This document shows positions 38,512 to 64,000 of a DNA stretch of 64,000 nucleotides, one piece after another. Within the stretch, counting starts at the first letter, position 1, and the number at the start of each line of letters is the position of its first letter. Under the pieces are notes generated by a model. The model did not search any database. It worked only from the letters and a program-made list of their open reading frames with translations, and was not told where the DNA came from. The position numbers and the translations under genes are program-made. This DNA comes from Hyaloraphidium curvatum (taxonomy: Eukaryota; Monoblepharomycota; Hyaloraphidiomycetes; Hyaloraphidiales; Hyaloraphidiaceae), in the NCBI GenBank assembly GCA_025558095.1, contig JAIVFI010000028.1, positions 543,113-607,112 on the forward strand. The letters run 5' to 3'.

Positions 38512-38839
38512 TCGCGATGGAGGACCAAGGGCAAAAACGGCAAAGTCAGGGAGGAAAAACGGCAGATGCTGCTTCATGCACATGTTATAGCTCAGTGCGT
38601 GCAACGGAGAGCGAACCTCCTTGCGCCCACCACGGGCCTGTAGTCCCAGTCCAAGGCACCCATACCGATCCCATGCCGCGGATCTGCACTAGCCCGATCA
38701 TCTATCGATCGACGCAGGCTCCCGGGAGGATGACCCGCAGAACCTGCGGCGGATGAATTCCGGGCAGACTTGCGGAGGCTCCGGCCGGTCCCGCTTTCCT
38801 TTCCAACCACACCCGTTGACCACACCCCGTTGGGGAGCC
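38512..38839. other. Intergenic, no gene seen
   Basis: 328 bases; contains a TAGCTCAGT string that looks like a tRNA D-arm but no matching T-arm. Confidence 0.4.
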
Positions 38840-39982
38840 ATGGCCACCCTCTCGCACCTGCCCGCGCTCTTCCTCGTGCTCCTCGACGCATCGTTCGCGT
38901 TCCTCACGCGATCCCGCGCGCGGCGCATCGCCCGCATCCCGCGGGGCACCTCGGACGCCACCCTGCGGATCGTCGTTCCGGCGCGCGACGAGGCCGCCAA
39001 CATCGCCGACTGCGTCGAAAGCGCGCTCGCCCAGCGTGTGGCGACACGGGTCGTTGTCGTCGATGACGGCTCGACGGACGGGACGGGCGGTATTGCACGG
39101 GAAGCGGCCGCGGGAGACCCGCGCCTCTCCGTGCTCCGGCTGGAGGGCCCGCCCGAGGGTTGGGCCGGCAAGGCGCACGCTCTACACTGCGGCTCTCAGG
39201 ACGCGACGGAAGACTGGCTGCTCTTTCTGGACGCGGACTGCCGGCTGGGCGACGGCGCCGCCGAGGCCGCCGTCGCCCTTGCGCTGCGGGAAGGCGTCGA
39301 CATGGTCTCGATGGGCGCGTCGCTGAGCGTCCCCTCGATCGCCTGGCCGACGGTGACCCCCGTGGGTCTGCAGCTGATCCTCGGCTCGTACGAGCCCGAC
39401 CCCCCCGCCGGCAGCGACAAGGCGCTGGCGGTGGGCCACTTCATCCTCGTCCGCCGGGCCGCCTACGAGGCCGCGGGCACATACGCCGCCATACGCTCCA
39501 CACGCGCCGACGACGTCGACCTCGCCTCGCTCGTGTGCCGCTCCGGCTCGCGCACGCGGTTCGCGTGGGGCGGGGACCACCTGCGGAGCGCGCAGCAGGC
39601 GACCTGGGGGGAGCTCTGGGCCAGCTGGCGAAAGAGCCTGCACGCGGGGACGCAGGGCAGCGCGGGGCAGCTGCTGTCGGGGGGCGCCTTCTTCCTCGCC
39701 TGGGGCGCGGGGCCGTTCGCCTGTGTCGCGATGGGGTTGCGCGGCAAGGACGCGGTGCTGGCGGGGCTCGGCGCGGCCAGCCTGGCGATCCAGGTGTGGG
39801 GCAAGGCCGCGTGCGATGCGGGGATGCGGCTGCCGTGGTACTGGTGCTTCGCCGCTCCCGTCGCGAGGATCGCGCTGGGCGGCATGATGGTAGACGCAGG
39901 GCTGCGGGCGCTCGCCGGCTCTGCAAGCACGTGGAAGGGCCGCTCGGTGGAGAGCCAAACGCAGACAACCAAGCAGGAGTGA
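38840..39982 (+). CDS. Family 2 glycosyltransferase, HpnB/CrtQ-like
   Basis: 380 residues, single exon, start MATLSHLPALFLVLL. An N-terminal membrane helix is followed by a GT-A domain: LRIVVPARDEAANIADCV, VVVVDDGSTDGT, PEGWAGKAHALH, LLFLDADCRL (DxD), and RADDVDLASLV, then a C-terminal part with two or three hydrophobic helices (AFFLAWGAGPFACVAMGL and AAPVARIALGGMMV). The PEGWAGK...LDAD pattern is that of the bacterial hopanoid-linked HpnB and carotenoid-glycoside enzymes. The sugar and lipid acceptor are not known; a lipid glycosylation role is inferred. Likely of bacterial descent. Confidence 0.85.
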   Translation: MATLSHLPALFLVLLDASFAFLTRSRARRIARIPRGTSDATLRIVVPARDEAANIADCVESALAQRVATRVVVVDDGSTDGTGGIAREAAAGDPRLSVLRLEGPPEGWAGKAHALHCGSQDATEDWLLFLDADCRLGDGAAEAAVALALREGVDMVSMGASLSVPSIAWPTVTPVGLQLILGSYEPDPPAGSDKALAVGHFILVRRAAYEAAGTYAAIRSTRADDVDLASLVCRSGSRTRFAWGGDHLRSAQQATWGELWASWRKSLHAGTQGSAGQLLSGGAFFLAWGAGPFACVAMGLRGKDAVLAGLGAASLAIQVWGKAACDAGMRLPWYWCFAAPVARIALGGMMVDAGLRALAGSASTWKGRSVESQTQTTKQE

Positions 39983-49294: not shown

Positions 49295-50713
49295 TCACGG
49301 AGACCGACCCACCGCCGCCTTGGTCCTCTCGTTCAGCTCCTCCCATGCCGTCTGGTCCGCGACCGTCCAGCACGCCGGCGCCCCGGCCTCCGCCGCGCCC
49401 TCCGCCGCCTCCACGTCCGCCCAGTACCGCGCCTGCTCCCCGGCCGTCCGCGGAACCGAGGCCAGGCCGCGGCGCCAGGCGTCGGCCGCTTCCGCCGCGC
49501 GCCGCGCAAACTCCCGGGGGTCGGGCGCCACGGCGACCGTGTTCCAGAGGGTCCGCGCCTCGCACCACTCGTCGGGGCAGGTGCAGTTCGCCGGCAGCGG
49601 GCCCCAGTGCGTGAGCTGCCCCTCGGCGCCGCGGATCTGCAGGGGGAAGTGGGAGAGCGGCACCGCGGGCGCTAGCGAGGACAGGATGCCCTGCACGAGG
49701 CCGTGGTGCTCCGCAGGGACGGCGTGGGGGTAGACTTCCAGCACGGCCGAGAAGGGGGGCAGGAAAAGCAGGTGGCCGAGGGCGGCGCCGTGGACGAGGA
49801 CCAACAGGTCCGTTTGCGCGGCGAGGCGGACCTGCGCGGGGGGGTCGAGGGAGGCAAAGTCGACGATCCCGGGGGCGCGGCCGCCGCCGAGCCAGGTCAG
49901 GGTGGCGTTCATGGCGGCGAGGGCGTGCGGGGCGAAGCGGCGCGTCCGGGTGCGCTGCACGACGGTGATCCGGGGGTGGAGGCGCGGCGGGGGTGCGGCG
50001 GCGGGCTCCGTCGCGCCGATGTCTGCAAAGATCCCGCGGCGCACGTGCACGGCGGCGTCGGGGGGTTCGAACGTGCGGTTCGCGATCCCTTCGGGCCCGA
50101 GACAGTGCCCGCGGTGGGTGCAGGCGGCGCGCGTGCCGGCAACGAGCCGGCCCACCCTGAACGTGCCGGCATCGCGATGCACCAGCCGCACGCCCGGAGC
50201 CAGCGCGGACAACAAGCGCTCGTCCAGGTTCCCGCGCCCGTTGCTGTCAAGGGCGAACAGCGCGAACGGCTTCGTGGTGCCGTCCGCGGCGACCCCGCCG
50301 ACCGCATCCCACGCCATGGAAGTCGCCGGCACGACCTCCTCGAAAAGCACATGGTACAGGTTGCGCGGGCTGAGGCGGCCCAGCATGACGCCCGCAGGCA
50401 CGTCCTCGGCGCCGGCCGCAAGGGCGGCCCACTCGCCGCGGTGCCGCACGGCACGCACGTCGCACCCGGCCGTTTGGGCTGCCGGGTTGTTGGCGATCGA
50501 GCACAGCAGCGGCGGGACTGCCCCCGCGCCACCCGGGTCGAGGAAGTAGACCGTGCCGTTGGCCACGAGCGCGTCGCGGAACACGCAGCGGGCGGCGTCG
50601 CGCGTGCTGCCCGAGCAGACCGCCGGCCCCTCCCCGCCGCCGCGGCGCCGGCCCTGCAGGAGAAGGGCCGCGAGAACGGTGGCGAGCAGCACCGGGCGGG
50701 GCAGGCCCCACAT
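49295..50713 (-). CDS. Family 61-like glycosyltransferase, type II membrane protein
   Basis: 472 residues, single exon. A signal anchor (PVLLATVLAALLLQG) near the N terminus fits a Golgi type II protein. GT61 features: RNLYHVLFEEVVPATSMAW, VVQRTRTRRF, LDPPAQVRLAAQTDLLVLVHGAAL with the conserved G.HGA.L, and PFSAVLEVYP. Family members add xylose, GlcNAc (including on EGF domains) or arabinose. Cysteine pairs (CTCPDEWC) suggest a lumenal domain with disulfides. Divergent from the nucleotidyltransferase gene with 69 bp between starts. First gene of the glycan cluster. Confidence 0.82.
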   Translation of the reverse strand: MWGLPRPVLLATVLAALLLQGRRRGGGEGPAVCSGSTRDAARCVFRDALVANGTVYFLDPGGAGAVPPLLCSIANNPAAQTAGCDVRAVRHRGEWAALAAGAEDVPAGVMLGRLSPRNLYHVLFEEVVPATSMAWDAVGGVAADGTTKPFALFALDSNGRGNLDERLLSALAPGVRLVHRDAGTFRVGRLVAGTRAACTHRGHCLGPEGIANRTFEPPDAAVHVRRGIFADIGATEPAAAPPPRLHPRITVVQRTRTRRFAPHALAAMNATLTWLGGGRAPGIVDFASLDPPAQVRLAAQTDLLVLVHGAALGHLLFLPPFSAVLEVYPHAVPAEHHGLVQGILSSLAPAVPLSHFPLQIRGAEGQLTHWGPLPANCTCPDEWCEARTLWNTVAVAPDPREFARRAAEAADAWRRGLASVPRTAGEQARYWADVEAAEGAAEAGAPACWTVADQTAWEELNERTKAAVGRSP

Positions 50714-50782
50714 CCCCAGCAGGGATCCGTGCCAAGGGGTTAGGGATTGGTCGGGTGCTGACGCGACGCTCCGCAGCCGGAC

Positions 50783-51556
50783 ATGCACGCGCACCACCGC
50801 AGCGCGCTCGAGCGCATCGTGCGGCGCTTCCAAGCCGATCCGGATGCGTTGGCGCTGATCGTCGTCGGGTCGGTGGCGCGGGGCGACGCGCGCCCGGACT
50901 CGGACGTCGACGCGTACCTCGTGGTGACCGACGAGCGGTTCGCGGACGGCCGGCGCGAGTGGAACGCGGACGACCTCTGCGACTGGCACGGTGGCACCGC
51001 CGGGGGACCCATCGTCGACCTCGGCTTCCTCCGGGACGCGGCGGAACGCGCGCCCGAGCCGCTGCGCTACGCGTTCACGAACGCGTTCGTCGCCTTCTCG
51101 CGCGTGCCGGACCTGCAGGAACTGCTCGACCGCATCCCCGTATACCAGGGCCGCGAGCGCGCCGGGAAGCTCGCCGGCTTCGCGGGCCAGCTCCCCGTCC
51201 ACCTGGCCTACCTGCGGCTGGGCGAATACAGCCGGAACGCCTACCTGCTGGCGGAACCGGCGGTGGAGCTCGTGCTTTACGGCGGGCGCCTGATTCTGGC
51301 GCACAACCGCATGCTGTACCCCGGCCGCAAGTGGTTCATGAGGGAGCTGGCCCGCGCGCCGGTCAAGCCCGAGGCCATGGTGCGGCTGGCGGAGGAGCTG
51401 CTCGCCGCACCGAGCATAGCACGCGCCGAGGCGTTCTGCGGCGCGGTGCTGGGGTTCGCGGCCTGGCCGCAGCCGCCGGAGGGGGCGACGGCGCGGTTCC
51501 GCCGCGACCGGGAGGATCACTGGCGCAGCGGGGCCCCGCCACTCGCGGACTGCTGA
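50783..51556 (+). CDS. Minimal nucleotidyltransferase, bacterial-like
   Basis: 257 residues, single exon. The DNA-polymerase-beta-type nucleotidyltransferase motif is clear: VVGSVARGDARPDSDVDAYLV (GS...D.D) at residues 27-47, which binds the metal and NTP. After it comes a helical region of about 150 residues seen in aminoglycoside- and HEPN-like nucleotidyltransferases (GKLAGFAGQLPVHLAYLRL, LILAHNRMLYPGRKWFMREL). It transfers a nucleotide to an unknown small molecule or protein. It is not a sugar-nucleotide pyrophosphorylase fold. A broken inverted copy lies at 53.1-53.3 kb. Confidence 0.84.
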   Translation: MHAHHRSALERIVRRFQADPDALALIVVGSVARGDARPDSDVDAYLVVTDERFADGRREWNADDLCDWHGGTAGGPIVDLGFLRDAAERAPEPLRYAFTNAFVAFSRVPDLQELLDRIPVYQGRERAGKLAGFAGQLPVHLAYLRLGEYSRNAYLLAEPAVELVLYGGRLILAHNRMLYPGRKWFMRELARAPVKPEAMVRLAEELLAAPSIARAEAFCGAVLGFAAWPQPPEGATARFRRDREDHWRSGAPPLADC

Positions 51557-51999
51557 CCGCCCGCCGCACGGGGAGTGTCCTCCCACCCCCATGTTATACA
51601 TCGCGACACGCCATATGCATTACATACGTACGTCCGCCCATTTGTGATGGATGAGAGTATCGATCTGGAGGTGTTCTCGACGTGGGAGAGGTTTCGCGAT
51701 GGCCTGACGGACAGATCTGTCCAGCTGGCTGCTTCTGACCGAATCAAGGAATTACTCTACCGTTCGTCAGAACCTTTTATGGGCGTCACAATAATCCGTA
51801 TAAAAGATTCGATTGGATGTTTCGTGTATCTTTTGAGTTCAATCCACTGGCGTGATTGGATGGTTTCGATGTCGACCGATTCCCAGACTGGACATACATA
51901 TCTTGGCTTTGGGAGCTTTCCGTTCCTGGGTCTCCGGTGGATTCTGCTGGGCACATAAGCCAATCCAGGGCACCATCGCGGAGTTGCTGCGCCCTCCAG
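51557..51999. other. AT-richer intergenic stretch in the glycan cluster
   Basis: From about 51,580 the GC content drops visibly compared with flanking genes. It joins the LINE remnant. Frames are open on both strands, but without known motifs. Confidence 0.4.
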
Positions 52000-52650
52000 A
52001 GGGCTCAGAATACCACGATACGACATTAGACTTACATCAGCTATGGACCGCTCTCGCACCATTGGCATCTGCAAATTTCTCGGTGATGCTGATTTTGCTT
52101 CCTTCTTCCGTCTTTCCATGCTCTTCTCGAAGAAGGTCTCCGCCGCGCCCAAGATCCTGCGCTTAGCACTCCGTTCCTCGTTGTCCAGGCGGAATGGCGA
52201 CCCTTCCAGTATCCATGACCACGTCCCCAGGTCCCATAGGCCGTGACCGTGTTCTGTACCGAGCTCTCGCACCCGCTTGGCCAGCTCTTGCCGCAGGTCT
52301 TCGTTCCGGCTGCAGCCGAAAAGTAGATGCAGCTCGTCATCAATCTCTCCTCGGTCGTGTTTGCAGGTCCGCCGGTCCTTCGGCCAGTTTGGTAGCGCCT
52401 GTGTACCTGCATGATACGAGCGTGTTCTCCATCCCCGTGAGCAGACGGATTAGAGCACGTCTCCGCGATTCCACCTCGATCTCCAACGCTGGATTAAACC
52501 CGAACGCTATGGCCGATGTCCTTGCTCGCTGTGGAAGAAGTGCCGCGATGACTTGACCTGTCAGCAAGGTCTCACTGCCTGATCCTGATCGAATGAGGGA
52601 GTTACTCCCCCGTTCATCAGAGCTCCTGATTTTCAAAAAGCTCTGCATGG
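52000..52650 (-). mobile_element. Remnant of a non-LTR retrotransposon (LINE) C terminus
   Basis: Two minus-strand frames together resemble the end of a LINE reverse transcriptase: ALIRLLTGMENTLVSCRY, then in the next frame TCKHDRGEIDDELHLLFGCSRNEDLRQEL, which fits the L.TG...C..C...E..HLLF.C zinc-knuckle pattern, and then helical RRKKEAKSASPRN. The frame change near 52,360 and the lack of upstream reverse transcriptase blocks mean it is dead and 5'-truncated. Lower GC than neighbours supports foreign origin. No poly-A tract or target duplication was identified. Confidence 0.45.
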
Positions 52651-53128
52651 CGAATTCCGGTCGATGGTTTCGATGCGGACCGAGTCAGGGACTGGCTGGA
52701 CATGTGAGGTTCCAGGAGGGGTGACGACTCCATTGCTCCCCATGCCACGCACGTGGACCGCTGTAGCCATGCGAATTGCATCCCGTTAGATATAGATTCA
52801 CCCATTCGGTCAATCTGGAGCACATCTGGTCCCAGCCAAGCGGAATGCTCCGAGCTGTCTCCCAGAGGAAATGCCGCGCGCGACTTTCTCGCATCGCCCC
52901 GCCGCATCCGCATCTCCCTTCCCAACCCAATATCTCCCGATTCGAGGTTGGCAACGATGTGTAATGATCCGTCTCCGATGGAGCTTTGCGCGGCGCACGG
53001 CCGCGGGGCGGCAGAGAGAACATGTCGTCCGCCAACGTCCGCATTCCCCGGCGCACCAACGGCCGGGCGCCCCAGCGAAAGGACACCCCGTTTGACGGAG
53101 GACGCATGGAGCCACCGAATGAACACCG

Positions 53129-53314
53129 CAGCATCCGGTTGTGCGCCAGGATCAGGCGTCCGCCGTACAGCACGGGCTCCACTGCCGTTTCCGCCGGCAG
53201 GTAGGCGTTCCGGCCGCTATCGCCCGGCCGCAGGCAGGCCGGGCGAACGGGGGGCCGGCCCGCGAAGCCGGCCAGCTTCCCTGCGCGTTCGCGGCCCCGG
53301 TAGACGGGGATGCG
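53129..53314 (-). pseudogene. Broken inverted copy of the nucleotidyltransferase gene
   Basis: About 62 codons matching the middle of the gene at 50,783: RIPVYRGRERAGKLAGFAG, then GRNAYLPAETAVEPVLYGGRLILAHNRML. Both ends of the match are abrupt. Several Leu codons have become Pro and the metal-binding GS...D.D motif is missing, so it cannot be active. It lies inverted to its parent, just before the GT92 start. Confidence 0.8.
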
Positions 53315-53389
53315 GTGGGGCACTTCCTGCGGGTCGGGGCGCGCGGAGGCGACGAGGGACGGAAGGGGCGCCTCGCCGCTCCGGATCCG

Positions 53390-54430
53390 ATGCGCTTCCC
53401 GACGGCCCTCGCCGCCGGCGCGGCGGCCGCCCTCGCGCTGCTATCCGCGCACGCGTTCTTTGGCCGTCCGGAACCGCCGCGCGCGGCCGGCGGCCCCCCG
53501 CGGATCGCGGCGTGCGCGGTGGTGCGCGACGCGTCGGCCGATCTGCCCGAGTGGCTCGCGTACCACCGCGGCATCGGCGTCTCGCGGTTCCTCGTGTTCG
53601 ACGACGGCTCGCGCCCGCCGCTGCGCATCGATGCGCCGGACGTCGAGGTGTCCCGCGTGGCGGGCACGCGCGCGGCCCCCGGCGAGGACAAGCCGCCGTT
53701 CGCGCGCACGGCGCAGGGCGTCGGCTACGCGCGGTGCGCCGTCCGGTGCGCGGACTTCGACTGGATGCTTTTCGTCGACCCGGACGAGTTCGTCATGCTG
53801 CGATCGCCGCGGCCGTCGCTCCCCCAGTTCCTCTCCCGCCCGCACATCCGCGACGCGTCGGCGGTCTGCCTCAACTGGATCGTGTTTGCCGCCCCGCCCG
53901 GCACCCCGCGGTCGGCCAACGGCACCCTCGCGGGCTACTCGCGCTGCGCAGGGCCGGGGTTCGTCAAGAGCAGCGCGTTCAAGGCGGTCGCCAACTGCCG
54001 GCACCTCGTGGGGATGGCGTCGCCGCACAACCCCACCTCGTGGGGATGGCGTCGCCGCACAACCCCGTGGTGCGGGATGATCCCCCGGGGGAGCCGGGCG
54101 CGGGGCCGGGCGGGGTCGACGCGCTGGGGTGGCTGGTGGCGGTGATCAGCCCGTAGAGATCTGATCAGCCCGTTCAACACGCGGGAGCAGGTGGCCGCGC
54201 CCGTGGCGGTGCACCACTACATGTATCGCTCGGACGAGGAGGTGCGCGAGAAGCTGGCCAAGGGCGGCGCGGACGGCAAGGTGCGCACCGAGGAGGAGCG
54301 AAGGTTGGCGGCGGCGGCGGCGAACGCAACGTGCGATTACCTGCAGAGGAGGGTCAGGAAATGCTGCCCGCTGGTCATGGACTGGGACAGCGTTCCCCCG
54401 CCGCTGTACGGGGACGTCGGAAACGATTGA
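53390..54430 (+). pseudogene. Family 92-like glycosyltransferase, broken by two tandem duplications
   Basis: Starts MRFPTALAAGAAAALALLSAHAFF (signal anchor). GT92 blocks: IAACAVVRDASADLPEWLAYHRGIGVSRFLVFDDGS, then DFDWMLFVDPDEFVML with the D-x-D-type metal site, ASAVCLNWIVF and HLVGMASPHNP. A perfect 32-bp tandem repeat (54,003-54,034 and 54,035-54,066) shifts the frame, giving a stop at 54,143-54,145. A second short duplication (12-bp match, period 19, at 54,143 and 54,162) follows. With single copies the frame would run on through ISPFNTREQVAAPVAVHHYMYRS to the stop at 54,430. So the gene was recently intact. GT92 enzymes add galactose to glycans. Confidence 0.78.
54003..54066. repeat. 32-bp direct tandem duplication
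   Basis: Two identical adjacent 32-bp units beginning ACCTCGTGGGG inside the GT92-like gene. The length is not a multiple of three. Confidence 0.95.
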
Positions 54431-54813
54431 TTGGCCCGGCCGGCCGACACGTGGTGGTGCCGTCGGTTCGCTATGGGTACCTTTCCATCGCCGCCCGCTC
54501 GGCCGCCTCCATCGCCGCCTCTGCCTTGGCAGCCCTCCCCTGGACCCGCACCGCGTCCCTCCCTCCGCCGGGTCTGGCTCCTTCGGGAACGCCCCTGGTG
54601 GGGCCGGTAGAGCGCCCGGGACCCCATCCTCGAGGGTGGGACAAGGCTGCCGGGACCAAACTCGACTTGAATCAGCAGTTCCGCACCGTAGCTTCACCAT
54701 GCATCTCGGAAATCCGACGGTGGCCTTGTCCCGTCCTGGTCCTCGTCCGACGCCAGGGGCACGGACGGCTGTTTGCTGCGCTCCGCAGATCGCCCACCCC
54801 AATGCATGGCAGC
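54431..54813. other. Intergenic, convergent 3' ends
   Basis: 383 bases between the GT92-like gene and the pyruvyl-transferase-like gene. Nothing recognised. Confidence 0.45.
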
Positions 54814-55968
54814 TCACCCCCCGCACGGCTCCGCGATCCGCGCCAGCACCTCCCCCGCGCTCCCCTGCAGGGCCTCCAGCCATCCCCTCCCCGCCTCGCC
54901 CACTTTCCCCGCATCCACCGCCTCGAACCCCCCCGCGAGGACCTCCCCCGCCTCCCGCACGGCGCCCTTGGCCGCGTGCCCGACGCCCGAGTAGTAGTCC
55001 GCGAACTTGGTCCAGGGCTCGGAGCCGCCCGGAGGCAGGAGGACGCGGGAGGGCACGCCGTACGCGTCGGCGAGGGCGGCGCCGTGCAGCGAGCCAGAGA
55101 CCACCGCGCGCGCAGAGGTCAGCCGGAGGACGAGGTCCAGCGCGGGCGCGGTAGAGGGGGTGAAGGCCATGTAGACGGGGCGGAGGCACCCGAAGGTGGA
55201 TTCGAGGGCCTGGAGGGAGGGGTGCGGGAGGCCGGCGGAGGAGAGGGCCGCGAGGTCCGGGGCGGAAAAGTGGGCGGAGGGGAGGAGGCGGCCCGAGGGG
55301 GAGAAGGAAGAAGAGAGGATGCGGGCGGCGGCATGCTGGTGCAGGTGTATCGCCAGGGCGAGGCACGTCCGCCTGTGGGGAAGCACGTAGAGGGAGGGGA
55401 AGAGGAGGGGCATGGCGAGCACGGGGTCGCCGACGGACACCCTTACCGCACTCTTCAGCGGGATACCCGAGGGCGCGGTGCACGGCGCCGACGGACCGCC
55501 GGGGCACACGAGGTCCATCGAGAGGCGGCCGCGGGTCGCGAGGAGCAGCGCGTCCCCCGCCGACGCGTCCCCGGCCGTCCCGTTAACGTCCGCCCGCTCC
55601 AGCTTGGTGCCCATGCCGGCGAGCACGTCCCCTGGTTGGAGGAAATATGCCGGCGCGTGTAGCTCCGAGCCGACCATGACCAGCTTGCCCCGCGCCGAAA
55701 ACTCCGCGCGGCGGACCGACACGCGCTTCCCCGCGGCCCGCTCCAGGGCGGCGCGGAGGATCACCGGCACCAGCGCGTCGCCCAGGTTTTCGACCGCCAC
55801 GTCCGCGCAGCCCACCGGCCACCACGTCGCGCGCACGCAGATTTCGGGCGGGGGCGGCGGCGCGGGAGCGGGCGGGCGGGCGAGCAGCAGCCGCAGGCCA
55901 AACAGGAGACAGGAGAGGAGGAGGAGCAGGAGCGGCAGGGGGAGCCGGCCCCGGAGCACCGCGGCCAT
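54814..55968 (-). CDS. Polysaccharide pyruvyl transferase-like, type II membrane protein
   Basis: 384 residues, single exon. A strong Leu-rich signal anchor (LPLPLLLLLLSCLLFGLRLLL, about residues 10-30) and Pro-rich stem are followed by VENLGDALVPVILRAAL, VMVGSELHAPAYFL, and the late motif ARAVVSGSLHGAALADAYGVPS, matching the NxGD and R/S-x-H-x-A pattern of this family. Bacterial CsaB and WcaK and fission-yeast Pvg1 belong here; Pvg1 puts pyruvate on galactose in the Golgi. Its start codon overlaps, head to head, an in-frame Met on the opposite strand (see next gene). Likely a Golgi sugar-modifying enzyme of the glycan cluster. Confidence 0.8.
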   Translation of the reverse strand: MAAVLRGRLPLPLLLLLLSCLLFGLRLLLARPPAPAPPPPPEICVRATWWPVGCADVAVENLGDALVPVILRAALERAAGKRVSVRRAEFSARGKLVMVGSELHAPAYFLQPGDVLAGMGTKLERADVNGTAGDASAGDALLLATRGRLSMDLVCPGGPSAPCTAPSGIPLKSAVRVSVGDPVLAMPLLFPSLYVLPHRRTCLALAIHLHQHAAARILSSSFSPSGRLLPSAHFSAPDLAALSSAGLPHPSLQALESTFGCLRPVYMAFTPSTAPALDLVLRLTSARAVVSGSLHGAALADAYGVPSRVLLPPGGSEPWTKFADYYSGVGHAAKGAVREAGEVLAGGFEAVDAGKVGEAGRGWLEALQGSAGEVLARIAEPCGG

Positions 55969-56168
55969 GTCGGCGATTCGAAAGGGGGAGTGGAAAACGG
56001 AAGTCCCTTGGGGATCCGTGCCGCAAGGATTCCCGCCCGCTGTCCCCTCTGTTTCGGGAGCGCACTGCGACGGGCCGGCCTCGTGCGGCACCCTCTGCCG
56101 CGGCTGCCCGGCCGCGCACCCCCCTCGGCCCGCGCCGCCCGCTCCCCTAACCCCCCGCACCCAAACAG

Positions 56169-56605
56169 CCATCCGATGGAGCGCCGCCCCGATCGCCGCC
56201 GAACTCGCGGGGAGGTTCGCCATCGAGCGCCCCGGGCTGCCCGCCTTTGCCCTGACGGAACCCTGCGTGCTGACCGCCGTGGGCAACGACTACTCGTGCG
56301 AGCGGGTGTTTGCGCGCCAGGTCGAGGCCGCGTGCGGGCCGGGGGACGTGCTGCTCGCCATCACGACGTCGGGGACCTCGCCAAACATCCTGGCGGCCCT
56401 CGCCGCCACCAAGCGCAAGGGCGCGGCGACAATCGCGCTGTGCGGACTGGGCGGGCAGATGGACGACGCGGACGTGAGGGTCAGGGTGCCGTCGAGGGAC
56501 ACGCCGCGCGTGCAGGAGGTGCAGATGCTGCTGGGGCACGCCATCTGCGAGATGGTCGAGCGGGAAATGTTCGGGGGAGGGGACGCAGGCGACGCAATGG
56601 ACTGA
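56169..56605 (+). CDS. gmhA: GmhA-like sugar isomerase (SIS domain), N terminus not found
   Basis: GmhA turns sedoheptulose 7-phosphate into D-glycero-D-manno-heptose 7-phosphate, the first step of heptose synthesis. The 145 visible codons match its C-terminal three quarters: AAELAGRFAIERPGLPAFAL, VGNDYSCERVFARQVEAACGPGDVLLAITTSGTSPN, AATKRKGAATIALCG, and VRVPSRDTPRVQEVQMLLGHAICEMVEREMF. The TSGTSPN loop and the late RVQE..H pattern that hold substrate and catalytic residues are present. What should precede them, the GNGGS..DA.H loop, is not found: the frame enters from an acceptor (AACAG at 56,168) or continues open to a Met at 55,967 with unrelated sequence. Gene is real by family, but its 5' end is unresolved or lost. 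Confidence 0.75.
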
Positions 56606-56651
56606 GCTGCCTGTGCGAGCTGCGTGTGCGATATCCTTCACTACCCATTGC

Positions 56652-58184
56652 TCAAATAACGAGCGCCGCGTGCCGTTCCGGCCCAGGCTGCCCCTCGGTC
56701 CGCGCCCTCATTCTCTTAGCCGCGTGCAACGCCGCCCTATTCTCCCACAGCTCCTCCAGCGCCGCCCTCGCGTTCCGCGCCGCGGCCTCGGGCCCCCTCT
56801 CCCTGCGCACCCACCTCCCGCCGCGCCGGCCGACCTCCCGCGCCCTGTCCGGGTCGGATGCGATCGCCCGCATGATCCCCGCCGCGGCATGCACGTCCGG
56901 TTCCGGCCACCCGGGGTTGAGGTACGTCCCCTCCTCCGCCGGGCACCCCGTGCCATTGTCGCGCCCCTCGCCGATCCGATCGGGCCACCGCACGGGGACG
57001 AGGTACTCCCAACCGGGCGGCTGGAAATCCAGGTTCCCCGAGTAGTTGGTCGCCACCACGGGCTTCCCCATCGCCAGCGCCTGGTACATCCCCAGGCCGA
57101 CGCCCTCGGCGCGGTGCAGGCTCGCGTAGGCGTCGCAGGCGGCAAAGAGCGCGCGCATGCCCGCGGGGGGCAGGGTGCGCGAGACGACGGCGACGGAGGG
57201 GTGGGTAGATGCGAGGGAGACGACGGCGGGCCAGCCGGAGGTGGTGTTGGCGCAGTTGTGGGCTTTGAGGAGCAGGCGCGGGCGGGTGCCAGGCCGGGGC
57301 GGCGGTTGCCCCGGCGGGAAGGCGAGGAGGAAGGCCTGCACGAGCCCCAGGGGGTTCTTGCGGTGCACCGACGAGAGGCAGTCCATGGTGAAGAGGAAGA
57401 CGTAGTCGCCGGGGAGGAAGCCCAGCTCGCTGCGGGCGGCGGCGACCTCGTGCGCGGGGGGTTCTCCCGAACCGACGAACTCGGGGGAGTACGTCTCCCG
57501 CACCGCGCGCACGGGCAGAGCGGTCCATTTCCGGAAAGTCGCGGCGACGAACTCCGAGTGGGCCCAAATGCCGTCGAGCGAGGCGAGCTTGCGCAGCCAG
57601 TCGCGGGGGATGACCTCGGTCTCGAGCGGAATCCACGCCACCGCGAGGGCGTCGCGGTCGGGGCGGAAGGAACCGGTGGTCGCCGCCTCGAACACGACGT
57701 CGAGCAGGTCCAACGCGACCCCCGTCAGCGAGACGAAGTAGCCGTGGGGCGCGCGGCAGTCCATCCCCGCCACGTCCGCCCCTCCCGCCCTCAATTCGGC
57801 CAGCAGCGCCTCCCACGCCTCCTTGTCCGTCTTGTGCGGGGTAGAGACGACGTCGTGGGCGTCGCACGCGCGCACGGGGATGCCGGCCAGCGCGAGGGTG
57901 CGCAGGAAGGAGCGCGAGCCGGCGGCGATGCCGAACTGTCCCGAGAACCAGGAGTAGAACGCCACGCCGAACGTTTTCTCGGCCGAGTGGTTCTCCGACG
58001 AGCCGGCGTCCGGCCGCGAGAAGGCGTCGAGTGTCCGCGGGAATTCAGCCGACGCGAGGGCGGAGAGGCCGTCCCGGGCCGGTTCGCGGGCGGGCCCCAC
58101 CGGGAGCGCCCCATGGAGGCGCAGACGGAGCACCGTCAGGAGGCTCAAGGCCGCGCTGAGGGTCGCGAGGAGCCTTTTCTGCAT
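56652..58184 (-). CDS. Family 4 glycosyltransferase with signal anchor
   Basis: 510 residues, single exon; first true Met (MQKRLLATLSAALSLLTVL) begins a membrane anchor, while the longer frame starts at a GTG and lacks bias. The GT-B C-terminal half shows YVFLFTMDCLSSVHRKNPLGLVQAF, RLLLKAHN, and HRAEGVGLGMYQALAMGKPVVATNYSGNLDF, the E-x7-E donor motif of retaining GT4 enzymes. The N half has YSWFSGQFGIAAGSRSF and GIPVRACDAHDVVS. Type II Golgi topology is expected. Such enzymes transfer a sugar, including heptose in bacteria, from a nucleotide donor; the donor here is unknown, but the gene sits between the two heptose genes. Confidence 0.85.
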   Translation of the reverse strand: MQKRLLATLSAALSLLTVLRLRLHGALPVGPAREPARDGLSALASAEFPRTLDAFSRPDAGSSENHSAEKTFGVAFYSWFSGQFGIAAGSRSFLRTLALAGIPVRACDAHDVVSTPHKTDKEAWEALLAELRAGGADVAGMDCRAPHGYFVSLTGVALDLLDVVFEAATTGSFRPDRDALAVAWIPLETEVIPRDWLRKLASLDGIWAHSEFVAATFRKWTALPVRAVRETYSPEFVGSGEPPAHEVAAARSELGFLPGDYVFLFTMDCLSSVHRKNPLGLVQAFLLAFPPGQPPPRPGTRPRLLLKAHNCANTTSGWPAVVSLASTHPSVAVVSRTLPPAGMRALFAACDAYASLHRAEGVGLGMYQALAMGKPVVATNYSGNLDFQPPGWEYLVPVRWPDRIGEGRDNGTGCPAEEGTYLNPGWPEPDVHAAAGIMRAIASDPDRAREVGRRGGRWVRRERGPEAAARNARAALEELWENRAALHAAKRMRARTEGQPGPERHAALVI

Positions 58185-58574
58185 TTCCGAGTCGCAGGTA
58201 TCGGCGTCGTCCCTCGGCACGGCCACCTCCCGGATCCTTGCCGGAAGCCACGCTTCGGCAGCGGCACGAAGACCTCCGGTTGCCGCTAAGAGCTCCGCCG
58301 GGCGCACCTTCTCGCCTCTTGCGGGTTGCCTGGAGCCCAGAGGCGGAGGCGGCGGCGGGCGGCCCCACCAGCCCGCCTATATCGGCCGGCGACTCTCCGC
58401 GCTTCGCCAAGCCCAATCTCCTTGCACTTAGGCACCCTTGGTGAGTCCACCGGGGCTGTGAGAGGCCGTGCTGAACTGTGCCACCGCCCTTACCGAGTCG
58501 CCCTTTCGGCCGCGACGCGTCTACAAAGGGCGCGATCCCTCAGCGATCCCCATCTTTCGTCCTTTGGTGGCCGC

Positions 58575-60179
58575 ATGGCCGGCGGCCCCCGCGAGCTCCG
58601 GCCGGCCGTGTTCGTCGACCGCGACGGCACGCTGAACCCTGATGCGGGACACACGCACCGCGCCGAGGATTTTCGGCTGTTCCCCGGCGCCGCGGACGCG
58701 CTGCGGCGACTCGCGGGGAGGGGCTTCCTGCTCGCGGTGGTGACGAACCAGGGGGGCATCGGGCGGGGGCTCTACACGGAGGGGCACTTCGAGGCGGTCA
58801 CGGACCACATGCATTCGCTGCTGGCGGCGGAGGGCGCGCGGGTCGACGCGGTGGTGCACTGTCCCCACGCGCCCGACGCGCGGTGCCGCTGCCGGAAACC
58901 CGAGCCGGGCATGTTCGTGGCCGCTGCTACCAGTCTCAGCATCGACCTCGCGGCTTCGTTTGCCGTGGGCGACCGGCCATCGGACCTCATCGCCGCGCGC
59001 ACCGCGGGGATCCCCCGGTGCGCGCTCGTGCACTGCGGCGAGCCGCTGCCCTTTGCCGCGGACCGGCACGCCGATTTCGCGGGCGACGACCTCTCCGCCG
59101 CCGCCCGCTGGATCCTTTCCTTCCCGCCGCCCTCTCCCCGCCTCCCCGCCCACCCCTCCCGCGCCCTCGCCCGCGCGCCCCTCCGCGTCGGCCTCGCGGG
59201 GGGCGGCACCGACGTCCCCCCCTTCCCCTCGCTGCACGGCGGCGCCGCCCTCGCCCTCGCCATCTCCCTCTCCGCCCGCGCGGAGGTGTGCCTCCTGCCC
59301 CCGGGGTCCCCGTGCCGCTTCCTCACCCCGGACCTCGGCCAGTCCCTCTCGCACGACCCGTCGGAGCTCGCCCTCCCCCCGTCGGATTCGCCGTGCCTCC
59401 TCCCCCTTGCCGCTTATCGGCACTTTGCCCTCCTCCGCGGCCCATTTTCCTGCCTCGCCTCGATCCGCTCGGACGCGCCGCCGGGCTCCGGTTTAGGCGG
59501 ATCCTCCGCGTGCCTGGTGGCCCTCGTTAGGGGGTTTGCGGCGGTCTTGGGAATCCCAATGTCGGCGCGGGAGGTCGCCGAGGCGTGCTGCACGATCGAG
59601 AGGGGGGACCTGGCGATGCCGGGAGGCGGGCAGGACGCGTTTTCGGCGGCATCCGGTGGGGTGAACCTTTTCACGTTTCCCAAGGGAGAGGGAGAGATCG
59701 GCATACGGAGGATCATCCCGGGGCAACGCACGGTCGAGGGGCTGGAGGGATTGGTGCTTCGGTGCTCCGGGGCGGGGCGGCCGCCCGGGACGGGGCACGC
59801 CGCTCGGGCCGACCGGGACGCGCTGGACCACGGGGAGGAGGAGGCGCTGCTGCGGATGAAGGGCGCGGCGCTGGCGGCCGCGGACGCGCTCGAACGGGAC
59901 GACTGGCCGGCTGCGGCGGCCGCGATCGCCGCGTCGTGGTCGGCCAAGCCCTCGGGCGGGAGCGTTCCGGCGGTCGTCGCGGCGCTCGGGGCCGGTGCGG
60001 CAGCTGCCAAGGTGTGCGGCGCGGGGGGCGGCGGGTTCGCCGTCGCGCTGTGCGGGGCGGAGGCGAGGGAGGCGGTGGAGCGGGCGCTGGCGGAGGCGTC
60101 GTCGGCCGGTTGGACGGTTCCGGTGAGGCTGGCGTTCGCGGGTGCGACGGCGGAGATCGCACCCCCCGACGGGCCGTAG
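58575..60179 (+). CDS. Fused heptose-bisphosphate phosphatase and heptose-7-phosphate kinase (GmhB-HddA)
   Basis: 534 residues, single exon. Residues 1-185 are a GmhB-type HAD phosphatase: VFVDRDGTLNPDAGH (Asp15, Asp17), TNQGGIGRGLYTE, the zinc loop CPHAPDARCRCRKPEPGM (Cys96, His98, Cys104, Cys106) and VGDRPSDL. Residues 200-534 are a GHMP kinase of the HddA type: RVGLAGGGTDVPPF, APPGSGLGGSSACL (ATP loop, about 302-314), MPGGGQDAF and KVCGAGGGGFAVAL. In bacteria HddA phosphorylates D-glycero-D-manno-heptose 7-phosphate at C1 and GmhB removes the 7-phosphate, so the two steps after GmhA are in one protein. No signal peptide, so cytosolic. Upstream Met codons in the frame have poor bias; MAGGPRELRP was chosen. 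Confidence 0.9.
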   Translation: MAGGPRELRPAVFVDRDGTLNPDAGHTHRAEDFRLFPGAADALRRLAGRGFLLAVVTNQGGIGRGLYTEGHFEAVTDHMHSLLAAEGARVDAVVHCPHAPDARCRCRKPEPGMFVAAATSLSIDLAASFAVGDRPSDLIAARTAGIPRCALVHCGEPLPFAADRHADFAGDDLSAAARWILSFPPPSPRLPAHPSRALARAPLRVGLAGGGTDVPPFPSLHGGAALALAISLSARAEVCLLPPGSPCRFLTPDLGQSLSHDPSELALPPSDSPCLLPLAAYRHFALLRGPFSCLASIRSDAPPGSGLGGSSACLVALVRGFAAVLGIPMSAREVAEACCTIERGDLAMPGGGQDAFSAASGGVNLFTFPKGEGEIGIRRIIPGQRTVEGLEGLVLRCSGAGRPPGTGHAARADRDALDHGEEEALLRMKGAALAAADALERDDWPAAAAAIAASWSAKPSGGSVPAVVAALGAGAAAAKVCGAGGGGFAVALCGAEAREAVERALAEASSAGWTVPVRLAFAGATAEIAPPDGP

Positions 60180-60236
60180 ATTTCTCGGCAATGCGAGCTC
60201 GTGACGTAACCTGCCCCCTGGCAGTTCACACTGGCC

Positions 60237-61502
60237 TCATCCTTCGCCCACAACGCGGTCCCTCGCAACGCCGCCCGCCAGCAGCCCCTCCAGCTCGCAC
60301 GCGTGCAGCCCTCCCGCGAACCCCTCGACGTCCCCCCGCCCGTACGACACCGCGTACCAGTCCCCCACCCGCGACAGTCCGGAGAGGAACCCCTGCCCGC
60401 TCTCGGGCCCGAACGCGCGGAACGGCCGTCCGGCGCGCAGCAACGCGTACGGCGGGAGCGCCGAGAACGAGTAGGCAAAGAAGTGGTACACGTTGGGCCA
60501 GGTGCCATTGTCAAAATGCCCGATCGCGACGCGTTCGGTAGGGGAGTGGGGGACACCCTGCGAGCCGCCGTGGACCTCAGCGGAGGGGACGCCGAGCTGG
60601 GCGGCCAGACCGGGAAAGGAGGTCCGCGCGACCTCGTCGCAGGCTCCGGTGCGGTCAATGTCGCAGCGGAGGACGACGTGCGGGTCGAGGGAGTAGGAGA
60701 GGAGGAGCTCGCCCACGCGGGACACGAAGGGGATCCAGTTGCGCTCCGTCGGGCGCATGTTGGGGGTCGAGAGGTAGACAACCGAACGCGGGGCAAGCTT
60801 CGGCACGCTCTCTTCGGCAGACGACGCGCCGTTGGGGAAGCTCAGCGCCAGCAGTTCTTCGAGGTCCGCGAGCACGGCGGCAATGCGCTGCGACGCGCAC
60901 GCGCGCGGGTGCGGCGACTTGGCGAGAACGAGCAGCCGCCCGTCAGGCAGCACGACGGGCCGCGGATCCAGATAGCCGTGGTACGGCGCGAGCGGGCACT
61001 CGCTGCGCTCCGAGGGGTGCGGCGCCGCGTCGAGGTGCACGAAGCGGCCCGGCTCGAGGTCCGCCAGACGCCCGCGGAAACGGAATTCCGGCGTGCGGGG
61101 GAAGCGGAAGGCGCGCAACACAACAAAAAAGTTCCCCTGCGGCGGCCACTTCTCGCCCTCGCGCGTCGGGGTCGAGCCGTTGAACGAGGCACGGAACGCG
61201 ACCAGCGCGAATCCCCGTTGGGAGAGCACCTCCGCGTCCTCCGCGGCCACCGACGGATTCGCGAGCAATATCCACGGCGGAAGAGCAGGGAAACGCGGCG
61301 GCACATCGTCCAGCCGCGATTCGGAGGCGGCGAGGGCGGCGGGGATGCCCGAAGGGAGCAGCGGCGTGCGGAGGCCCGGCGGGAGCGCGCAGACCGCCGG
61401 CGCCGGTGCCGCATCGAACGAAGACACTGGGGAGCGAAGGATGAGCCAGGCCGCGGCGAGGGCGGCGGCGGCGGCCACGGGGAGCACGCGGTAGCGCGGC
61501 AT
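60237..61502 (-). CDS. Membrane-anchored propeller-like protein, possible sugar-transfer enzyme
   Basis: 421 residues, single exon, with a signal anchor (VLPVAAAAALAAAWLIL). Conserved-looking blocks: PRPVVLPDGRLLVLA, ERNWIPFVSRVGELLLSYSLDPHVVL, AEVHGGSQGVPHSP, VAIGHFDNG, YHFFAYSFSALPPYALL and WYAVSYGRGDVEGF. This order (NW.PF, YS..PH.VL, GGS or GGT, a GH segment, PP, SYG..D) is like the five-bladed-propeller domain related to GH130 and fungal beta-mannosyltransferases, but I am not certain. Its stop lies 57 bp from that of the GmhB-HddA gene (convergent). A 150-bp inverted copy of part of it is at the telomere. Confidence 0.65.
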   Translation of the reverse strand: MPRYRVLPVAAAAALAAAWLILRSPVSSFDAAPAPAVCALPPGLRTPLLPSGIPAALAASESRLDDVPPRFPALPPWILLANPSVAAEDAEVLSQRGFALVAFRASFNGSTPTREGEKWPPQGNFFVVLRAFRFPRTPEFRFRGRLADLEPGRFVHLDAAPHPSERSECPLAPYHGYLDPRPVVLPDGRLLVLAKSPHPRACASQRIAAVLADLEELLALSFPNGASSAEESVPKLAPRSVVYLSTPNMRPTERNWIPFVSRVGELLLSYSLDPHVVLRCDIDRTGACDEVARTSFPGLAAQLGVPSAEVHGGSQGVPHSPTERVAIGHFDNGTWPNVYHFFAYSFSALPPYALLRAGRPFRAFGPESGQGFLSGLSRVGDWYAVSYGRGDVEGFAGGLHACELEGLLAGGVARDRVVGEG

Positions 61503-62045: not shown

Positions 62046-63723
62046 CTACAGAGACGCGTCCAATAGAGCCGCCTGCACGGCAGTGGGGCTGGGGTTTCGC
62101 CCGGCTTGGATTTCGGCCCAGGCGTCGGCGTTCATTGCCAGCGCTAGAGCGACCTCCGCGTCAAACTCCTCGTCCAGCGCTTCCTGGACCGTCACAGCCA
62201 ATCCGTCGCTTTCATCTTCATCGTCCTCGTCGGGAATGGGCTGGACGGCGTCCCCAGAATCGTCCGCATCGCTCTCGAGCTCGTTGTCGACGACCATCTC
62301 TGCGGTCCGAAAAGAGCGACTGCGAGGCTCCGGCGGCACCAGAGCTGCCTCCTCCTCATCGTCATCGTCAATGTGAATGACCATGGTTGCATCCTGGCGG
62401 CGGTACTCGTCCTCTTCCTTCTCAGCATGAATGACGAGCCTCTCCCATGCGGCAGCATCCACCAGCGCAAACCCCTCCTCCAGAAGGACCTTGACGTCGG
62501 CAAACTTGCGCGACTCGTTGTTCTCAGCAACGCGGTTCTTTGCGCGGGCCCACGCAAGCTCGATGGGGTTCAGTTTGGGGTGGTACGGGGGAAGGAAGTG
62601 GAGGTAGATGTCGAACTCGAGTGCCAGCTGGTCAATGAAGCGTTCCGGCTGGTATCCGAGCTCCTGCAGCAGCTTGCGAAGGTCCTTGACGGTAAAGCCG
62701 CCTCCAGTCTTCGTTTTGCGCGCCGTGAGCTGCTCCATTGTGTAAAGAGTCGTGCCCATGTCCATGATGGCCTTGGCGAGATCTGCCTTCTTGGTCAGCT
62801 GCGAGATCCGTTTTTGACCCTCCACAGGTGCAATGTGGTACGCAGCATTGTCCATGTGTACGTGGATCTCGCCCTCCGGGTCCTTTTTGCGCATCTTCCG
62901 AAATGCACCCCGAGCCCACTCTTCAAAGTGCCTCGCATTCATGGATCCGTGGTAATCCGCCAGCTTATGATCGCCCTGGAACACTTTGGGAGGCTCGAGC
63001 CATCCGTATCTCGATCCACAGCCGATGATGCACCACCGCTTTCCGTACCCGTCCGGGTGGGGAACCTCATCGCCGGGACGATACCAGGTAAAGTTGCTGA
63101 CGTGATTTTGATGGACGTACGATTCATCGAGCCAGTACTGGGGTGAAGAGTCAGCAGGAGCTCAGAACAGCAGCGAGGGAGGGACTTACCGAGACGACTT
63201 TCTTGTCGGGCTCCTTCTCCCCTTTGCGAATCCGGTACCGCTCTCGCAGGTACTCATACCGCCGCACATGGATGTTTGGAGTCATGACAACGATCTTGTG
63301 GCCTCCAATCTCCTTGTATCCGAAGCCCAGGTGCTTGCAGAGGGCACGCACGTATCGAAGACTGAAGAATCGGTTGAATTCCCGCACCATTTCCTTCTGT
63401 AGCTTCTTGGTACGGACACGGCACATTGCCCTGTGCTGTTTGCTGACGTAGTCGATGACAAATGCGTTCCATTCCGTCGTCGTGTTGAAGGTTCGATCAG
63501 ATCTGCGGTCCGCCCACAAGGCCACCTTGCCGCTCCTTTCAAACTCGTTGTACAGCTGCCTGATGGTCCCTTCCGAGGCCCCAACCATCTGCGCAACCTT
63601 TTTGACTGGATCACCGACTCCCATGGCCTTCTTGTGGTGTAGAATCCGGAGGTATGCTTTCCGGAGGTCGTATGACAGCGGTTCTCCGGGCTTCCTGTTT
63701 AGCACTTCGGGGATGCCGAGCAT
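62046..63723 (-). mobile_element. Tc1/mariner-like DDE transposase gene, intact and spliced
   Basis: Two exons, 63723-63190 and 63137-62046, give 541 residues; the intron has the donor GTAAGT, seen nowhere else in the window. Exon 1 encodes a helix-turn-helix DNA-binding part (PLSYDLRKAYLRIL, VKKVAQMVGASEGTIRQLY). Exon 2 holds the catalytic triad: WLDESYVHQNH (Asp182), VHMDNAAYH (Asp274) and HPKLNPIELAW (Glu371). A long acidic tail (DDDDEEE, DEDDEDESD) ends the protein. The frame is intact, so the element may be young. Lower GC and different codon use set it apart. The start lies only 12 bp from the inverted gene copy, so the element's own 5' flank may be missing. Confidence 0.85.
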
Positions 63724-63734
63724 TCTGATATTCT

Positions 63735-63884
63735 CCCCTCCGCTGAGGTCCACGGCGGCTCGCAGGGTGTCCCCCACTCCCCTACCGAACGCGTCGCGAT
63801 CGGGCATTTTGACAATGGCACCTGGCCCAACGTGTACCACTTCTTTGCCTACTCGTTCTCGGCGCTCCCGCCGTACGCGTTGCT
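63735..63884 (+). repeat. 150-bp inverted copy of part of the propeller-like gene
   Basis: This segment is the reverse complement of 60,439-60,588, apparently without gaps. It encodes VAIGHFDNGTWPN and SFSALPPYALL on the plus strand. At its right end the match stops at TTGCT and telomeric repeats begin; at its left end it stops 12 bp from the transposase start. Confidence 0.9.
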
Positions 63885-64000
63885 TTAGGGTTAGGTTAGG
63901 TTAGGTTAGGGTTAGGGTTAGGTTAGGTTAGGTTAGGTTAGGTTAGGTTAGGTTAGGTTAGGTTAGGTTAGGTTAGGTAGGTTAGGTTAGGTTAGGTTAG
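63885..64000 (+). repeat. Telomeric repeat tract, TTAGG with some TTAGGG
   Basis: 116 bases of G-rich repeats to the end of the window. The first units include three TTAGGG copies; most of the rest are TTAGG, with one slip (TTAGGTAGG). The G-rich strand runs 5' to 3' towards the right, as expected at a right chromosome end. Confidence 0.93.

Follow-up and report, generated by a model that had tools for sequence, protein, structure and literature searches.

Manno-heptoses are best known from bacteria. An alpha route that leads to guanosine diphosphate (GDP)-heptose is described for Campylobacter jejuni in the available portion of PMC10680097, and the subject of this report is a set of genes resembling those of that route in Hyaloraphidium curvatum, a fungus of the Monoblepharomycota. 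The central element is a reading frame that joins a GmhB-like phosphatase to an HddA-like kinase, and it resides in the final 64 kb (the whole stretch analysed, hereafter ‘the window’) of contig C28 (607,112 bases); the genome, 31.9 Mb in size, is assembled in 55 contigs. As in the bacterial route, an isomerase, a kinase and a phosphatase homologous to the enzymes of the first three steps are predicted to be encoded with their key residues, which agrees with the proposal of a first-pass annotation of the window that this fungus carries heptose enzymes of bacterial type. The fungal system differs in that the kinase and the phosphatase are fused, in that no HddC, the nucleotidyltransferase that would act fourth, was found, and in that the genes lie near the ends of two contigs (C28 and C14) rather than in one operon. 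The window holds the fusion and an isomerase fragment, an intact isomerase lies elsewhere, and HddC, which the first-pass annotation had reported missing from the window, was not found anywhere else in the genome by searches blind to exon structure. This gene set is real and surprising, and heptose synthesis appears to be the best reading of it, from which we infer the activities and the last steps.

A second group of related systems produces nucleoside diphosphate (NDP)-beta-heptoses. Enzymes for their synthesis were described in dinophytes, protostomes, archaea and viruses by Tang et al. 2024, as told in the available parts of two commentaries (PMC11573728, PMC11461863), the first of which notes recent reports of beta-heptose nucleotides in archaea, viruses and some eukaryotes (PMC11573728). 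The beta route employs HldE-type nucleotidyltransferases, and according to PMC11461863 (in part) eukaryotes and viruses lack its phosphatase. In those same parts, neither commentary names a fungal producer or a GDP route. H. curvatum shares with the eukaryotes of this group the presence of bacterial-type enzymes for heptose nucleotide synthesis, whereas it has the phosphatase and no HldE-type enzyme was found in its genome.

The fusion (58,575-60,179, plus strand) is an open frame of 534 residues that contains no internal stop and was matched only once in the whole genome. Its phosphatase half gives its best NCBIfam match to PRK08942 (E 8e-51), with 172.1 bits falling narrowly under the curated cut-off of 178, and scores 133.5 bits against TIGR00213, under the cut-off of 149.6; under the strict NCBIfam cut-off rule it is therefore best termed GmhB-like. 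Its sequence matches D,D-heptose 1,7-bisphosphate phosphatase in the PDB (2gmw/3l8e, E 2e-38). Both aspartates of the DxDG catalytic motif (D15 and D17) are retained, as are C96, H98, C104 and C106 of a Cys/His loop that we take to bind zinc. Furthermore, 24 of the 25 columns that are conserved in at least 90% of 14 reference GmhB sequences are kept; these references are the rows from HddA loci that remained after length and score filters were applied to the 48 loci with a match.

The kinase half matches NCBIfam NF049969 (E 9e-26, 91 bits, compared with a curated cut-off of 600) and, in the PDB, the Burkholderia heptokinase WcbL (4usm, E 2e-33). According to the available part of PMC4691232, WcbL activity is abolished by mutating R13, D22, S118-S120 (together), Q162 or D163. 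On alignment, WcbL R13, D22, S119, S120, Q162 and D163 correspond to R204, D213, S310, S311, Q353 and D354 of the fusion, such that six of the seven mutated residues are identical; the seventh, S118, is replaced by G309, and glycine is the HddA consensus letter at this position in our alignment (A1). Among 58 columns conserved in at least 95% of 50 reference HddA proteins (those with gmhA or gmhB in their own locus, from 80 loci), 47 are kept, compared with 34 in the protein of the same genome that we read as fucokinase. These genes and conserved residues are direct observations, and the two-domain fusion that the first-pass annotation had described was confirmed.

A second representative of the same fusion, P0002, was found on a 23-kb public contig. 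It has the same domain order, is 48% identical over 99%, and keeps 23 of the 25 GmhB columns and 46 of the 58 HddA columns; its NF049969 score of 145 bits is likewise below 600. HAD and GHMP domains occur together in three of the 120 matches listed from 304, namely the window protein, P0002 and P0110, the last of which carries them in reverse order. This search for relatives scored the 8,000 candidates with most words in common, and a single scan of viral_contigs revealed no viral relatives of P0002. GmhB is also fused to a pathway partner in HddC-GmhB proteins, which account for 16 of the 61 nucleotidyltransferase frames located near HddA in the loci described below. However, the partner in those proteins is the nucleotidyltransferase, whereas in H. 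curvatum it is the kinase.

Two copies of the isomerase gene gmhA were identified. The window copy (frame 56,169-56,605), annotated at first pass as a GmhA-like isomerase, does match SIS_2, but the match begins at position 50 of the 138 in the profile, and the copy thus represents only the C-terminal two thirds. Its DNA begins to resemble the C14 gene abruptly at 56,178 and continues to do so until 56,589, over 414 aligned columns. When the whole window was searched by tblastn with the N-terminus of the C14 protein, no fitting N-terminal exon was recovered; scattered gapped matches, of which the best (E 6e-5, obtained with composition correction off) lies at 36.5-36.8 kb, were rejected as such exons. 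A whole isomerase therefore appears to be encoded only on C14, with the window copy a fragment. The C14 protein matches SIS_2 profile positions 22-137 of 138, retains 35 of the 40 columns conserved among 23 reference rows (from 44 loci, after filters), scores 163 bits against TIGR00441, under the curated cut-off of 209, and shares 60% identity over 77% with a protein of Candidatus Eisenbacteria (P0223). In a quick tree of 65 GmhA sequences, P0122, which comes from a public contig of 1.5 kb, forms one clade with the two H. curvatum copies at 99% support in the Shimodaira-Hasegawa-like approximate likelihood ratio test (SH-aLRT), and this clade sits among rows that are bacterial wherever they are named. 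The tree fits transfer from bacteria, with no donor named. A 425-residue open frame that lacks a Pfam match, and that we read as glycosyltransferase-like, starts 92 bp from the C14 gene in a head-to-head arrangement.

The ratio of nonsynonymous to synonymous divergence (dN/dS) between the two gmhA copies is 0.18, with a dS of 0.51 over 132 codons, which we take as a sign that purifying selection acted during much of the period after their duplication. On this reading the window fragment would either have been shortened late or still do something. This bears on the proposal that these chromosome-end genes are relics undergoing decay and that the last enzyme of the route has been lost, which we judge to be decidedly improbable. 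The truncation of the window gmhA, the failure to find HddC and a 32-bp duplication where the frame of a neighbouring GT92-like gene breaks (which could instead be an intron) would all fit such decay. However, the fusion is open over 534 codons, the C14 gmhA gene is intact with its conserved columns largely kept, and the low dN/dS value also speaks against decay.

Which enzyme could activate heptose 1-phosphate was examined by searching the genome for nucleotidyltransferases in six frames, exon by exon, in a manner that is blind to exon structure. At the sensitivity used, the lack of other enzymes is likewise an observation. Six PF00483 matches emerged from seven candidates: the beta form of mannose-1-phosphate guanylyltransferase (GMPP-beta) on C17, in two exon matches, one of which matches mannose-1-phosphate guanyltransferase beta in the PDB (E 6e-48); a GHMP-GalU-like fusion on C19; a nucleotidyltransferase on C30; a HAD-SIS-NTP protein on C7; and a C4 protein that we read as GMPP-alpha. 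PF12804 recovered the same C30 and C7 genes, and PF07959 gave two neighbouring matches on C30 that belong to one gene (FPGT) by our reading. A bacterial HddC query returned six matches at E values up to 10, the best of which is GMPP-beta (E 7e-11), with a weak one on C41.

For comparison, we used the best 80, bacterial and archaeal, of at least 535 confirmed HddA relatives. Their loci carry, by best match, gmhA in 44 cases and gmhB in 40 (48 by any match), and a nucleotidyltransferase within 4 kb on the same strand in 59 cases (61 frames in total), and thus HddA homologues often reside in heptose operons. Of the 61 neighbouring nucleotidyltransferases, all but one prefer GMPP-beta over the C30, C19 and C7 candidates, and against a profile built from 33 of them the scores are 141 bits for GMPP-beta, 50 for C30, 30 for C7 and 18 for C19; the C4 protein and FPGT stood outside these two comparisons. 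In Yersinia HddC, Glu80 in the sequence EXXPLGTGGA selects guanosine triphosphate (GTP), according to the available part of PMC6981941. A loosened form of this motif is present in 55 of the 61 neighbouring nucleotidyltransferases (an earlier, narrower form in 21). When the loci of the PF00483 matches (L003-L008), the PF07959 gene (L018) and the weak C41 match (L117) were examined in six frames, the guanine motif appeared in the GMPP-beta frame and once on the opposite strand of the same stretch, which we take for chance, and not at the loci of C4, C7, C19, C30 or FPGT. GMPP-beta alone holds it among the genes matched by PF00483 and PF07959, and by these measures would be the nearest protein in this genome to bacterial HddC and its natural stand-in. 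The first-pass annotation had pointed to the rest of the genome for a heptose nucleotidyltransferase; no dedicated HddC or HldE type was recovered there within the reach of exon-blind searches, yet GMPP-beta, with its GTP-selecting motif, could serve.

Other candidates for the fourth step were set aside. By size, the C30 nucleotidyltransferase is the best candidate for HddC, but it lies directly behind a kinase read as glucuronokinase-like and lacks the guanine motif, and its relatives P0242 (by Pfam) and P0252 (by reading) join a GHMP kinase C-terminal domain and a nucleotidyltransferase in one protein. The C30 pair, a gene read as glucuronokinase-like followed by the nucleotidyltransferase (locus L011, 5,494-7,346), is nearest to P0241 (65%), with Planctomycetota P0248 at 60% and Engelhardtia mirabilis P0262 at 57%. 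Two further arrangements of this kind were encountered. On C19, a galactokinase-like kinase is fused to a GalU-like nucleotidyltransferase (L013, 4,779-6,743), and on C7 an open frame of more than 1,000 residues (L007, C7:689,998-693,357) combines a HAD phosphatase, a KpsF-like isomerase and a nucleotidyltransferase. We read the latter as also holding a choline/aminoglycoside-type kinase, and as another unusual sugar-activation enzyme.

L-fucose salvage, in which a GHMP kinase and then a guanylyltransferase yield a GDP-sugar, is a parallel that the H. curvatum genome also seems to encode, as fucokinase and FPGT. Its substrate is different, and FPGT, which belongs to PF07959 unlike HddC, was set aside as a partner for the fusion kinase, given that the genome has a fucokinase of its own by our reading.

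Activation of heptose as the beta-linked adenosine, cytidine or uridine diphosphate sugar (ADP-, CDP- or UDP-beta-heptose) by an HldE-type enzyme, for which the dinophytes and protostomes provide precedent (PMC11573728, in part), is in our view very improbable. Only two genes were matched by PF01467 (five candidates scored), and they were read as choline-phosphate cytidylyltransferase (CCT) and NMNAT, such that no HldE-type nucleotidyltransferase was recovered and this form of activation was rejected. In addition, the kinase belongs to the alpha (HddA) type.

We give somewhat better than even chances to the account in which H. curvatum holds the front part of the GDP-heptose route, GMPP-beta completes it, and the sugar goes to a surface glycan. 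The genes for the front part would have been acquired, probably from bacteria; GMPP-beta, which is proposed because no separate HddC was found, would most likely make GDP-heptose; and a Golgi transporter together with some glycosyltransferases, perhaps the adjoining ones, would place heptose on the glycan. We infer these activities, the bacterial transfer, the role of GMPP-beta, the transport step and the glycan that is finally formed. The TPT family, to which nucleotide-sugar transporters belong, gave 10 matches genome-wide, counted as exons rather than genes, and the position of the neighbouring genes suggests that they might use heptose.

Several observations weigh against this account. All three enzymes score under the strict NCBIfam cut-offs, and the window gmhA is broken, lacking both the GNGGSAA loop and His84, which the intact C14 copy has. 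Searches of the genome with PF00483, PF12804, the bacterial HddC query and the HddC profile recovered no dedicated HddC, and the 141 bits of GMPP-beta compare with 226-328 for the 33 rows from which the profile was built, which score high by construction. Our literature search found no paper on GMPP with heptose 1-phosphate, and no GT9 heptosyltransferase was recovered from the genome by a search that was positive in 5 of 14 control genomes. With respect to the kinase, the fungal protein and P0002 both lack the glutamine that follows Asp354, and in all 11 and 12, respectively, of the 58 conserved HddA residues are lost. In a quick tree of 104 rows, the fungal HddA half (P0001) and P0002 pair with 100% SH-aLRT support outside the other HddA proteins. 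The branch of this pair amounts to 3.4 changes per column, with that of the fucokinase outgroup longer still, and the kinase half does not fall within the clade of operon-borne HddA, a placement made unsure by branch length. Because of this long branch outside other HddA, we call the kinase half HddA-like, not HddA.

The lost residues and the long branch mean that the substrate may differ. An alternative, which we consider unlikely although it carries appreciable weight, is that the fusion has shifted to another phosphosugar, or that the route stops at heptose 1-phosphate, such that no nucleotide heptose is formed; the failure to find HddC would fit this as well. However, the fusion retains the residues for catalysis and sugar binding that were tested in WcbL, and the presence in one genome of GmhA together with a GmhB domain, both conserved, fits, to our knowledge, heptose chemistry alone.

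If GDP-heptose is made as we propose, a fungus with alpha-type enzymes would widen the list of organisms with heptose nucleotides, and would provide a natural setting for testing whether heptose can be activated by an ordinary GDP-mannose pyrophosphorylase. The fusion, which would combine two steps in one compact enzyme, could be used to prepare heptose 1-phosphate, and the sugar content of chytrid-lineage cell walls would become a directly testable question. In a literature search that was thin on subscription journals, no title or abstract beginning among the papers listed reported heptose genes in a fungus. The word heptose does occur in a fungal setting in PMC11401800 and PMC12843893, which concern mushroom polysaccharides, and in PMC11797010, which concerns a blastocladialean parasite and its bacteria.

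Table 1. Positions, strands and supporting evidence for the heptose genes, their neighbours and the contig end (window coordinates unless a contig is named)
Feature	Position	Strand	Evidence
GmhB domain, D-glycero-D-manno-heptose 1,7-bisphosphate 7-phosphatase type, residues 1-190	58,575-59,144	+	PRK08942, PDB, conserved columns
HddA-like GHMP kinase domain, residues 194-534, and stop codon	59,154-60,179	+	NF049969, WcbL residues
GmhA-like gene, 5'-truncated	56,178-56,605 (frame 56,169-56,605)	+	83.6% identical DNA to C14 copy
GmhA, intact	C14:746,511-747,167		Whole SIS domain; ~5.5 kb from TTAGG end
GT61-like glycosyltransferase	49,295-50,713	-	PF04577 21.9 vs cut-off 27, E 2e-4, below
GT2_4/GT92-like glycosyltransferase, first open part	53,390-54,145	+	PF13704 43.6 vs 27.5, over; GT92 21 vs 23, under
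Polysaccharide pyruvyl transferase-like protein, hydrophobic N-terminus	54,814-55,968	-	PF04230 E 0.011, below cut-off
GT4-like glycosyltransferase, N-terminal hydrophobic segment	56,652-58,184	-	PF13692 28.6 vs cut-off 27, just over
Protein called propeller-like by the first-pass annotation, hydrophobic N-terminus	60,237-61,502	-	No family match
TTAGG telomere-type array	63,889-64,000	+	Contig end

The genes that surround the fusion (Table 1) had been assigned at first pass to glycan assembly, and these assignments fared unevenly. The GT4 assignment holds by a small excess over its cut-off, whereas the GT61 and pyruvyl transferase assignments correspond to matches below cut-off; for the latter, one PDB match was at chance level (E 0.2). 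For the gene assigned to GT92, PF13704 is over its cut-off but the GT92 profile is under, and the frame ends after a perfect 32-bp tandem repeat (54,002-54,065). We read its C-terminal part as continuing in another frame at ~54,158-54,430, via an intron or a frameshift. Neither Pfam nor the PDB sequences (E values up to 1) yielded a match for the propeller-like protein, and its propeller fold is putative. The pyruvyl-transferase-like gene stands head to head with the gmhA fragment, its start ~210 bp away.

Within their first 60 residues, the GT4-like, pyruvyl-transferase-like, GT61-like and propeller-like proteins have hydrophobic stretches with 19-residue Kyte-Doolittle means of 1.67-2.49, and the fusion has none there (0.91). 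Hydropathy is a crude guide to membrane anchoring, and its use was limited to the first 60 residues because an internal window in the kinase half of the fusion (1.85 at residue 313) is as high as the N-termini of some neighbours. Genome-wide, pyruvyl transferase gave 13 matches, counted as exons rather than genes, of which the 11 over cut-off are in our judgement many for a fungus.

The telomeric setting noted at first pass is evident from the array that ends the window, and the end of C14 (752,701 bases) carries the same five-base TTAGG repeats. The usual form of the fungal telomere repeat is TTAGGG. This setting bears on whether the contig or an insert within it is bacterial contamination, which the bacterial type of the enzymes might suggest but which we find scarcely credible. 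The fusion lies within a 607-kb contig that ends in a TTAGG array, and C14 has the same end repeats. In public records the C14 GmhA is listed as ‘phosphoheptose isomerase [Hyaloraphidium curvatum]’, an entry that could also arise from contamination of the same assembly, and the fungal transcription factor domain PF04082 is matched weakly in the window (20.9 compared with a cut-off of 23).

The region also carries repeats and further genes. A DDE_3 transposase gene (62,046-63,161) lies between the cluster and the telomere, and a GT2 glycosyltransferase (38,693-39,979) lies ~10 kb ahead of the cluster. A 151-nt segment of the propeller-like gene (60,439-60,589) has a perfect inverted copy at 63,734-63,884, directly beside the telomeric array. 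A second inverted repeat (51,107-51,316 and 53,129-53,338, 86% alike) represents part of a PF01909 nucleotidyltransferase gene (50,762-51,556) copied upstream of the GT92-like gene.

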